A stretch of 64,000 nucleotides of DNA from Anabaena sp. UHCC 0187 (GTDB taxonomy: Bacteria; Cyanobacteriota; Cyanobacteriia; Cyanobacteriales; Nostocaceae): contig NZ_VILB01000010.1 in assembly GCF_009712035.1 (NCBI RefSeq), positions 65,794 through 129,793 of the forward strand. The letters run 5' to 3'. Under the pieces are notes generated by a model. It saw only the letters and a program-made list of their open reading frames with translations. It did no database searches and was not told the DNA's origin. Shown piece by piece: positions 42,794-46,240 of the stretch. The stretch's first letter is position 1. The number at the start of each line of letters is the position of its first letter. Made by a program: the position numbers and the translations under genes.

Positions 42794-45406
42794 ATGAGTA
42801 TTCTCGGTGCTATAGTCGGTGGTATTGCTAAATTAGCTGGGACTATCGCTCCCACATTAATGGCAGTAAATAAAACCCGGATCATTACTACCCAAACACA
42901 ATCTTTAGCACTTGCTCAAAAACGGGATAATGACACTCAACAGTTGGCAATGAAACGCATGGAATTTGATGCCAAAATGGAAATGATGCGGCAAAGTGTC
43001 AGAGCTAGAGAACGTCAAGGAGATAAGGAATTTAGCCTTACTCTTAAAGCTATGGAAGCAGAAACTTTGCTCACACAAGAAAAAATGCGGCAAGCATTTC
43101 AAGCATTAGAAGCAGAAAAACAACGAGAATTTACCCAAGCAATTGAAAAATTCAAAGCAGAAGTACAAATTGCCATCCAAACTGATAATATTGCCTTTCA
43201 AAAATGGAAAACTGAAACAGATCAACAATTTGCCATTGAAATCCGCTATCTTGACGCGCAAATTACCCGACAACGAGATAAACAAATTAGAAGAGATCAC
43301 AATAGTCCCTTTTTTGCCGTTGCTGATGACATTCTGGAAATAGTCCACAACCGCCCAGAAATGCCCCTAACAGTCTTCTTTTCCCCTCCGGTATTGCGTT
43401 ACGACCCTTTACCAAATAGCACCGCTCAGAGTCAATTTCCCATGATGGAATCTACCCTTTCTGGTGCTTTACGAGAACTATTTAAACAATATACCCTCAA
43501 CCAACGCCCAGTAAAATTTATGGCGGGAGAATGGGTAACAAAAAACCGTCGTGCAGAGTCAGCAGTTAATCAGATATTTAGTGAATTACGTTCTATTCCC
43601 GTGCTGGTTTTAGAAACTGAAGTAGAAGAATCTTTTTTTAACATCAACATCGGTTTTTGGAACAATGATTTTGATGATGCTCGTTTTGAAACCGTTGTGC
43701 GTAAACTGCGTTGGCAAGATACCATTAGCGAAATTTCTCAAAACCTATTCCAACAATGGCAACAACAAGGAAAAGCCATACAAACAGACTTGGATAGAGC
43801 CGAATTTAGTCGCCGTAGTCGGGAAACTTTCACTCACTACATGGAAGTTTTACACTCTATTCATGTGGGAATGGTGACAGATGAATATTTCTTAATTTAT
43901 GCACCCCAACGGCAATTACCCCTTTTGCCTACATTATTGCCTGATTTATTTGATGAAGCTAATCTTGATGATGATGAACGTATAGCTTTAACAAAAGCTG
44001 TAATTGACTACTGTAATGCCCTATTTGATGGTTTAGAACAAACTGAACCCGCTGTTATGGTGGAATTGCGTTTAGGTTGGGCAAAAATTTTACAGTCTGT
44101 TCCGTCACGCTATAGTTTTGCTAATCAAGTACAAGCAATTATGAAAACCTGGTTGAAACAACGAGGTATTAATAATAGTGTTGATCCAATTATTGACATT
44201 GGTAAAATGCTTGTACCTGAAGATAGTAATTTTGTCCAATCTTTCAATGCTTATTTACAAGTTTTAGGAGTAACGAATTATCTTAATATTGCTAAATCAT
44301 GTTTTAAGCGTGGCATGGAACATTTACAAGTCCAACGTCATGATCTAGCCAAGATTGATTTTGATCGGACTATTTCTTTAAATCCTCAAGCAAGTGTTTA
44401 CTATCAACGAGCTATGGCTTGTTATGGATTGAAGGAATATAATAGTGCTATTTCTGATTTAGATAAGGCTATTTCTCTCCAACCTCAAAGGGCTGAATTT
44501 TACGATTTACGGGGTGATACTTACCTAAAATTAAATAACGATGAAATTGCCCTAGCTAACTATAATCAATCGGTAACTTTAGGACATTCCACCGATAAAC
44601 GGGATGCTTTGCAAAAAGAATGGAATGATACCCGTCGTCAGGAAGAGGAAGCACGTAAACGCCGTGAAGCTGAAGCTGTTCGTAAACGTGCTGAGGAAGA
44701 AGAACGTCGTCGAGCTTTGATTTTACCTTTACCCAATAATCAAACCTTACAATTAGTTTGGATTGATGCTGGAGTATTAAAAATGAAAGGTGGACATACT
44801 GTAAATCTTTCCGAGTTTCGCATAGGTAAATATCCCGTTACCCAAGCACAATATCAAGCAGTTATGGGTACAAACCCCTCCCATTTCTTAGGTATTGGTA
44901 AGGAAAATCACCCGGTTGAGCGCGTTAATTGGCATCAGGCAACGGAATTTTGTCAAAAGCTGACTGAACACCTAAACAAACAGGGAATTAACGTCAAAAT
45001 TACCCTCCCTAGTGAAACCCAATGGGAATATGCTTGTCGTGCTGGTACAACCACAAAATTCTGGTTTGGAGAGAATGACAGCCAGTTAAAAAACCATGCT
45101 TGGTACACAGATAATTCTAATAGTCAAACCCATTCCGTGATAAAAAAAGAGGATACCCATACTAACCCTTGGGGTTTAGTGGATATGCACGGTAATGTTT
45201 GGGAATGGTGTGCAGATTCCTGGACAAGTAATGTTGCTGATTTACCTAAAAATGGTAAATCCTATGTTAATACATCTGAAAGCAACAAGCTATTACGTGG
45301 GGGTAGTTGGTGCAATGTTAGTAATAATTGCACTGCTGGCTATCGGGAAAACGATAGCGCGGGCTACTACTACTTCAGCTTCGGTTTTCGTGTAGTATGT
45401 GTGTAG
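42794..45406 (+). CDS. Coiled-coil/TPR protein with C-terminal FGE-sulfatase (C-type-lectin fold) domain
   Basis: An 870-residue protein. The N-terminus has a hydrophobic patch (ILGAIVGGIAKLAGTIAPTL), then a long coiled coil (about 40-180). A domain I do not recognise follows (190-460), then TPR units (about 505-600), a charged linker (610-640) and an FGE-sulfatase domain (640-870; GKYPVTQAQYQAVMG, VERVNWHQATEFCQKL, LPSETQWEYACRAGTT, DMHGNVWEWCADSW). The last 37 residues have the RGGSW...GFRVV frame of diversity-generating-retroelement targets. Ligand display is inferred. The TAG stop lies inside a GTAGGGGC palindrome. Confidence 0.85.
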   Translation: MSILGAIVGGIAKLAGTIAPTLMAVNKTRIITTQTQSLALAQKRDNDTQQLAMKRMEFDAKMEMMRQSVRARERQGDKEFSLTLKAMEAETLLTQEKMRQAFQALEAEKQREFTQAIEKFKAEVQIAIQTDNIAFQKWKTETDQQFAIEIRYLDAQITRQRDKQIRRDHNSPFFAVADDILEIVHNRPEMPLTVFFSPPVLRYDPLPNSTAQSQFPMMESTLSGALRELFKQYTLNQRPVKFMAGEWVTKNRRAESAVNQIFSELRSIPVLVLETEVEESFFNINIGFWNNDFDDARFETVVRKLRWQDTISEISQNLFQQWQQQGKAIQTDLDRAEFSRRSRETFTHYMEVLHSIHVGMVTDEYFLIYAPQRQLPLLPTLLPDLFDEANLDDDERIALTKAVIDYCNALFDGLEQTEPAVMVELRLGWAKILQSVPSRYSFANQVQAIMKTWLKQRGINNSVDPIIDIGKMLVPEDSNFVQSFNAYLQVLGVTNYLNIAKSCFKRGMEHLQVQRHDLAKIDFDRTISLNPQASVYYQRAMACYGLKEYNSAISDLDKAISLQPQRAEFYDLRGDTYLKLNNDEIALANYNQSVTLGHSTDKRDALQKEWNDTRRQEEEARKRREAEAVRKRAEEEERRRALILPLPNNQTLQLVWIDAGVLKMKGGHTVNLSEFRIGKYPVTQAQYQAVMGTNPSHFLGIGKENHPVERVNWHQATEFCQKLTEHLNKQGINVKITLPSETQWEYACRAGTTTKFWFGENDSQLKNHAWYTDNSNSQTHSVIKKEDTHTNPWGLVDMHGNVWEWCADSWTSNVADLPKNGKSYVNTSESNKLLRGGSWCNVSNNCTAGYRENDSAGYYYFSFGFRVVCV
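45295..45395 (+). other. Candidate DGR variable region
   Basis: Between LLRGGSW and GFRVV the codons are enriched for the NNC/NNT pattern expected when AAC/AAT codons of a template are altered at adenines (TGC, AGT, AAT, TGC, ACT, GGC, TAT, then TAC TAC TAC TTC AGC TTC just before GGTTTTCGTGTAG). This matches the form of variable regions in FGE-sulfatase-type DGR targets. No template repeat or reverse transcriptase is in the window, so the retroelement would act in trans. Confidence 0.5.
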
Positions 45407-45430
45407 GGGCAAACCCCCCGTGGTTGCCCC
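45403..45430. repeat. REP-like palindrome 1 (supplies stop codon)
   Basis: GTAGGGGCAAACC, then CCCCGTGGTTGCCCC. Inverted arms are GGGGCAA and TTGCCCC. Its TAG is the stop codon of the FGE-domain gene. Confidence 0.85.
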
Positions 45431-45578
45431 GATATTTATAATTACCACGCGATTACCTTAATATTTGTGGTAATCATTTGGTTGACCCGATATTTGTATT
45501 GATCAATAAATTGATTATTGGGGCGATCGCATTAAATCAAAACCCATGTAGAATTGATCATTAATCCGATAATTATGA

Positions 45579-45605
45579 GGGCAACCACGGGGGGATTGCC
45601 CCTAC
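45579..45605. repeat. REP-like palindrome 2
   Basis: GGGCAACCACGGGG ... ATTGCCCCTAC, the reverse orientation of the 45403 copy. Confidence 0.85.
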
Positions 45606-45685
45606 GTATTTTATGCGATTTATTTGGGCGATCGCATGAAATCAAAACCCATATATAATTGATATCGGGGCAACCACAAATTATT

Positions 45686-45713
45686 GGGGCAACCACGGGG
45701 GGATTGCCCCTAC
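45686..45713. repeat. REP-like palindrome 3
   Basis: GGGGCAACCACGGGG ... ATTGCCCCTAC, same orientation as 45579-45605, with a partial copy at 45667-45677. It ends 8 bp before the RAYT start codon. Confidence 0.85.
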
Positions 45714-45721
45714 ATATTTTT

Positions 45722-46240
45722 ATGGCGTATAATCCTGATATTCATCGTCGCCGTTCTATTCGCCTGAAAGGATATGATTATTCTCAGGCAGGGGCGTATT
45801 TTGTGACTATTTGTATTAACCAAAGGCGATCTCTCCTTGGTAATATTCAAGAAGGTATAATGCAGCCTTCACCAGCAGGAGAAATGGTACAAATTGTTTG
45901 GGATGAAATTCCTGCCCATTACCAAGGAATTGATATTGATGCTTTCGTTTTAATGCCTAATCATATTCATGGTATTATTATCCTTGAACCTAATTGTTCC
46001 ATGAAATTACCAGATGTAGTTCATCGGTTTAAATCTTTAACCACTGCTAGATATCGTCATGGTGTTTATGAAAAAGAATGGCCAGCTTTTGAAAAGAGAC
46101 TATGGCAACGCAATTATCATGAACACATTATTCGTAACGAAAAATCATGCGATCGCTTACGAGAATATATAAGAGATAATCCAATATTATGGGATGTTGA
46201 CACCCTTCATCCCAACAACCCCGAAAATTTCCCCACGTAG
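45722..46240 (+). CDS. REP-associated tyrosine transposase (RAYT)
   Basis: A 172-residue Y1 transposase of the HUH superfamily (IS200-like Y1_Tnp fold). The metal-binding HUH motif is His81-Ile-His83 in VLMPNHIHGIIIL, and the catalytic Tyr is Tyr149 in LREYIRDNPILW. RAYTs cut REP palindromes as single strands; the five palindromes at both sides of the gene fit this. The ATG at 45722 is chosen because MAYNPDIHRRRSIRLKGYDY is the normal start. The TAG stop belongs to a GTAGGGGC palindrome. Confidence 0.92.
   Translation: MAYNPDIHRRRSIRLKGYDYSQAGAYFVTICINQRRSLLGNIQEGIMQPSPAGEMVQIVWDEIPAHYQGIDIDAFVLMPNHIHGIIILEPNCSMKLPDVVHRFKSLTTARYRHGVYEKEWPAFEKRLWQRNYHEHIIRNEKSCDRLREYIRDNPILWDVDTLHPNNPENFPT

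Follow-up and report, generated by a model that had tools for sequence, protein, structure and literature searches.

A gene of Anabaena sp. UHCC 0187 that ends like the target of a diversity-generating retroelement (DGR) raises the question of whether such an element wrote this end and, if so, where the element is now. In a DGR, a reverse transcriptase (RT) copies a template, introducing errors at adenines, and this copy is substituted for the variable region (VR) of a target gene. The gene (42794–45406, + strand, from the list of open reading frames) encodes an 870-aa DGR-type variable protein and is located in the window, the stretch of 64,000 nucleotides that was analysed, within a 5.1-Mb genome that is assembled into 57 contigs and 99.99% complete (G000; the genomes compared with it are numbered likewise). 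The original prediction proposed that the C-terminus of this protein is a DGR target acting in trans. The reading favored here, with good confidence, is that the protein belongs to the DGR variable proteins but has since lost its retroelement, leaving a frozen site.

Residues 41–165 (42914–43288, + strand) form a helical stretch that is rich in E, K, R, Q and A, with no proline and a single glycine, and that is coiled-coil-like by composition only. The middle region (residues 150–500; 43241–44293, + strand) has no Pfam match; matches to it were obtained in 140 of the 388 genomes searched within the same taxonomic order, and its relatives at 76–84% identity sit in other families (G435, G271 and G343), which suggests horizontal transfer. 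A domain search placed a TPR at residues 533–565 (44390–44488, + strand), so that, of the coiled coil and TPR scaffold that had been proposed, the TPR is confirmed and the coiled coil keeps its composition-based status. The C-terminus is an FGE-sulfatase/C-type-lectin-like domain (PF03781; residues 667–868; 44792–45397, + strand). Its best solved relative, and the best PDB match of the whole protein, is 2Y3C (E 5.7e-37), the variable protein 1 of T. denticola, which we take to be a DGR target itself; this is a short protein from another phylum that lacks TPR and helical parts, and the alignment spans the VR through its variable end. As far as can be judged from sequence, the protein thus combines a C-type-lectin/FGE-type fold with a C-terminal variable region.

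The RGGSW...GFRVV frame expected at the end of the FGE domain is present, with RGGSW as the left constant part (45296–45310, + strand) and GFRVV as the right one (45383–45397, + strand). Between them lies a core of 24 codons (residues 840–863; 45311–45382, + strand), defined by codon analysis and orthologue comparison, and the series TAC TAC TAC TTC AGC TTC was found in the variable region as described; the constant codons of this VR are GCG GGC, then GGTTTTCGTGTAGTATGTG. The codons of the core are indeed dominated by NNC and NNT (NNY in 21/24 against 451/834 upstream in the gene, binomial p 5.7e-4). However, this richness is only suggestive as a sign of a DGR because another 24-codon window of the same gene also reaches 21, and the codon argument of the original prediction is therefore weak when taken alone.

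Stronger evidence than the codon make-up is provided by the comparison of orthologues. Among 100 relatives, full-length-type orthologues, aligned over most of their length, were found in G014 (92% identity), G009 (87–91%, split over two contigs) and G093 (51%). A further orthologue is present in G221, whose protein sequence is that of the MAG locus L132 (the two were counted once), and the copies of G093, G343, G435 and G271 are more distant; a 126-aa remnant in G039 was excluded from the statistics. The trio of G000, G014 and G009 offers 554 aligned codons besides the core, the G009 piece beginning at about codon 275. First and second codon positions are variable at 31/48 sites in the core versus 94/1108 in the rest (rate p 2.9e-20), a rate about 7.6 times higher, whereas third positions are not raised (3/24 versus 101/554), and the shift toward first and second positions in the core is significant (p 1.2e-6). 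Between G014 and G009 the core shows 24 first- and second-position differences and no third-position difference. When 24-codon windows were scanned at positions 1 and 2, the core was the most variable window in all five groupings scanned, although in G000/G014 overlapping windows reach the same value. Its variable sites in the trio number 31, compared with 13 for the best window outside it. Additionally, A is among the bases at 28/34 variable sites of the core compared to 103/195 elsewhere (p 0.0012). Hypervariability is thus limited to the VR, where it affects the first two positions of AAY-type codons, and this pattern together with the A-containing sites is what rewriting of AAC/AAT codons predicts. 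The G009 gene copy (L120, G009:C81) breaks off between its two contigs after about codon 260, and in Dolichospermum sp. LEGE 00240 (L133) the gene likewise ends at codon 265, close to a contig end.

On the other hand, three third-base changes in the core are unique to G000 (AAT, CGG and GAA; 3/24 against a background of 16/554, p 0.039). Rewriting itself does not explain these changes, which may reflect erosion after the last rewriting.

Some homologues still have the machinery in cis, with template differences that are biased toward adenines. In G093 (L248), a homologue is followed by the accessory gene Avd, an RT and a template, with 11/15 core mismatches located at template adenines, although a longer alignment running beyond the core has 11/28; this protein is 51% identical over nearly its full length and differs from that of G000 by its intact cassette and another C-terminal tail. 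The G082 homologue (37% identity) has an Avd match, an RT and a template behind it (13/15 core mismatches at template adenines). Planktothrix sp. PCC 11201 (L142) encodes a full-length homologue of 31% identity, with TPRs and FGE domain like the 870-aa protein and, unlike G000, with Avd, RT and template in cis after about 1.1 kb (12/14 mismatches at template adenines). A template from which the VR differs mainly at adenines was thus found for the homologues in G093, G082 and PCC 11201 and not for G000. The cis cassettes at these three loci make the architecture a recurrent DGR target in other cyanobacteria, and the TPR/helical scaffold is therefore not the unusual display that had been supposed. 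No MoxR, vWA, peptidase or TIR genes were seen among the eight upstream neighbors scanned at PCC 11201, G082 and G093, so that the neighbors at the three cis loci give no support to a role in a conflict system; those of G000 were inspected by eye.

DGRs are also found within the genus. RTs with 63–100% identity to the DGR RT of G002, used as query, occur in 5/16 genus genomes (G002, G013, G005, G011 and G004), and short DGR remnants in G014, G007 and G008. In nine VR–template pairs (from G002, G013, G004, G005 and G010, and outside the genus from G095), 126/139 mismatches fall at template adenines (singly 17/17, 13/13, 9/11, 13/15, 18/19, 17/19, 14/16, 13/16 and 12/13). In the two-contig genome G010, a template adjoins the VR (L116, G010:C1:1871000-1881000; 14/16 mismatches at adenines) and no DGR RT was found. 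G000 itself harbors a second orphan, the caspase–FGE gene L007 (G000:C11:44120-44794; Peptidase_C14 plus FGE), with 18/19 mismatches to the G002 template at adenines; this fit implies past contact of G000, or of a donor, with a DGR, and L007 would represent a second DGR-written end in a genome without a DGR. Among three further FGE genes of G000, the fit is poorer for L008 (12/29 mismatches at adenines) and L010 (10/20), and L009 hardly fits.

The machinery was sought in and around G000. As had been noted, no RT lies inside the window: tblastn with DGR RT and Avd gave no match at E 0.01, and the same Avd query finds Avd in the DGR loci of relatives. An RVT_1 profile search of the genome returned six RTs, none of which was accepted as a DGR RT. 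Five are group II intron-like, closely similar to one another and with an HNH-like end by eye (of these only L001 was scanned, its 289.5 bits falling just below the model cut-off of 300). The sixth, L006 (G000:C5:437703-438371), is a 700-aa RT of the candidate defense family UG19 (padloc E 3.6e-173). Searching G000 with the G002 DGR RT gave 24–31% identity only, on these proteins, and Avd gave no match at E 10 in a search run without a positive genome. Neither direct comparison nor an inferred template revealed a template repeat in G000; the inferred-template probe does work, as it recovered the templates of relatives such as G002 and G013.

Beyond G000, the constant bases of this VR matched no template outside the orthologues when 217 family genomes were probed (34 matches were read of the 50 listed, 6/34 having no readable frame), a search of viral contigs for the exact VR pattern came back empty, and plasmids gave no template for this VR and one partial match, in Fischerella NIES-4106. 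Compared with ten template-type sequences, the G000 VR showed at best 38 mismatches, 9 of them at adenines, and next 39, with 13 at adenines. These ten still included the sequence at 5390-5511 of L117 in G012, which was rejected as a template since its GGACT end fits a VR-type remnant instead. A 365-aa RT on contig C50 of G014 was likewise discarded as a DGR RT, as nothing beyond weak, partial matches was obtained for it (E 0.19 to 1.2e-4, 23–24% identity) and it is missing from the DGR RT list. The rewriting of this gene is thus deduced from its orthologues and homologues rather than from its own template. With neither a template nor a DGR RT found genome-wide, the refuting condition set by the original prediction speaks against an active element within the limits of the assembly; the orthologue pattern indicates that the target is real and its element probably lost.

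The VRs were also compared at their 3′ ends. In eight of the nine template-bearing VRs with ends printed, AGRACT or GGACT occurs 24–32 nt after GGTTTTCG, the exception being G093 (the VR end of G082 lies outside these nine). From its position, and from what is known of IMH elements, this motif would be a homing site (IMH-like). Of eight template-less copies, those of G009, G343 and G271 retain the motif at 28 nt; G000, G014, G221 and G039 lack it and have a REP-like TAGGGGCAAACCCC repeat close to the stop; G435 has neither motif nor repeat. In G000, a first REP-like copy begins at the stop codon (45404–45422, + strand), where most template-bearing VRs have AGRACT/GGACT, and a repeat search placed two more at 45586–45604 and 45694–45712 (both on the − strand), giving three copies within 45404–45712 against a chance expectation of 0.01. 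An IS200-like (Y1_Tnp) transposase gene lies beside the repeats (45659–46240, + strand; ORF list and domain match). ORFs similar to this transposase are also located near the gene in G014 (L121 3734–4318) and G221 (L253 3809–4357).

The alternative that survives best, yet an unlikely one, is that the gene is still being diversified in trans, by a DGR that resides on a plasmid or in a part of the genome absent from the assembly. An active trans DGR within the assembly itself was rejected, the searches of G000 for DGR RT, Avd and template being empty in a genome 99.99% complete, and so the trans action of the original prediction was not borne out. A plasmid lost from a 57-contig assembly is conceivable, a plasmid-borne DGR being known close by (pANA02 of Anabaena sp. 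90) and DGR RTs in 5/16 genus genomes; this is countered by the lack of an intact DGR RT in G014, G009 and G221, by the absence of a template for this VR from the 217 family genomes, the plasmids (beyond the partial match) and, as an exact pattern, the viral contigs, and by the replacement of the VR end motif by a repeat in G000. Somewhat less probable still is that rewriting of the variable end took place in a different host, from which this end was imported by horizontal transfer or gene conversion, the machinery never having been in the lineage. Near-identical VRs in G009 and in G039, which belongs to another genus, and the middle-region homologues in the families of G435, G271 and G343 speak for such an import. 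However, G000 has no donor-like second copy, for which reason gene conversion from a paralogue was rejected, and G000, G014 and G009 share the constant codons of the core (TGC, GGC, GCG GGC) and differ at most others, so that separate rewriting or separate imports would be needed. That a ligand-binding loop came under ordinary positive selection and no retroelement took part is very improbable: this explanation can be weighed as follows, in that it could draw on the weakness of NNY richness alone and on the lack of a known template fitting this VR, but it is at odds with the raised rate at first and second positions and unraised third positions in the trio, and with the fact that, in G093, G082 and PCC 11201, the same domain, frame and architecture belong to DGR targets with matching templates.

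The reading of a DGR target that has lost its element rests on the hypervariability pattern, on the cis cassettes of the same architecture in other cyanobacteria and on the fact that no machinery was found in G000. In the ancestor, a DGR RT with its helper Avd would have copied an AAC/AAT-rich template with adenines replaced at random, and the mutated copy would have overwritten the 3′ terminus of the gene, altering the residues between RGGSW and GFRVV and keeping the frame constant. The changed residues would lie on the predicted ligand-binding face of the FGE/C-type-lectin fold, and the TPR and helical parts may relay ligand binding to a partner, giving the 870-aa protein a putative sensor function. 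RT, Avd and template would later have been lost from the lineage, and the REP-like repeat would have taken the place of the VR 3′ end motif, leaving the site frozen. The lineage itself may once have had a cis cassette; this is supported by G343 (70% identity), where the gene is immediately followed by Avd and the genome yielded no DGR RT, an intermediate stage of loss. Behind a homologue in Oscillatoriales USR001 there is a 57-aa Avd match, with no RT in the fetched flank. In G000, G014, G009, G221, G435 and G271 the gene has no adjoining Avd or RT, and searches of these genomes yielded no intact DGR RT. The dismantling of a DGR around one architecture can thus be followed as a graded series of cis cassette, gene with Avd and gene alone. 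It is doubtful, though conceivable, that such retirement of a target is a regular, selected step in which the genome discards RT, template and Avd, a repeat of REP/IS200 type takes over the homing site and the receptor is locked as heritable memory; if so, G000 would hold at least two locked receptors (the 870-aa gene and L007) and G343 would have been caught midway. Frozen variable regions are where targeted mutation naturally ends, and they could reveal the ligands that were selected.

Several of these features have been described in cyanobacteria. The study of Vallota-Eastman et al. (2020; PMC7517822) describes DGR variable proteins with a C-terminal C-type-lectin/FGE module and a local hypervariable region, lists TPR among the extra domains, mentions remote targets and plasmid DGRs in Anabaena sp. 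90, proposes that DGR targets act as signaling sensors and includes the paralogue all3226, which has remnant homology and no RT nearby. The 870-aa protein resembles the targets in that study by its C-terminal FGE module, its TPR and its condition of a remnant-type target with no RT nearby, and differs from the cases given there by the lack of any DGR RT or template found genome-wide in G000 and by the replacement of the end motif by a repeat. The same study thus already reports a target that has remnant homology but no RT close by, and what is added here is a well-resolved series of loss. RT-first surveys overlook targets whose rewriting lies in the past, and PMC8144416 states that its own survey would not detect remote targets. 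DGR-linked antigen sensors of conflict systems have been proposed by Dore et al. (2024; PMC10907252) and by Kaur et al. (2020; PMC7159879). The present protein shares with the systems outlined there an FGE-type variable domain fused to signaling or scaffold parts in multicellular bacteria. It may differ from them in gene neighborhood, as none of the associated genes was seen among the eight upstream neighbors scanned at the cis loci. In the literature collection that was searched, no paper joins the term DGR with Dolichospermum. The plasmid pANA02 of Anabaena sp. 90 (L254) carries two FGE genes together with avd and an RT, and its template shares 98.5% identity with the G002 one; the Anabaena sp. 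90 cassette that is called degraded in PMC7517822 is perhaps another copy than this one.
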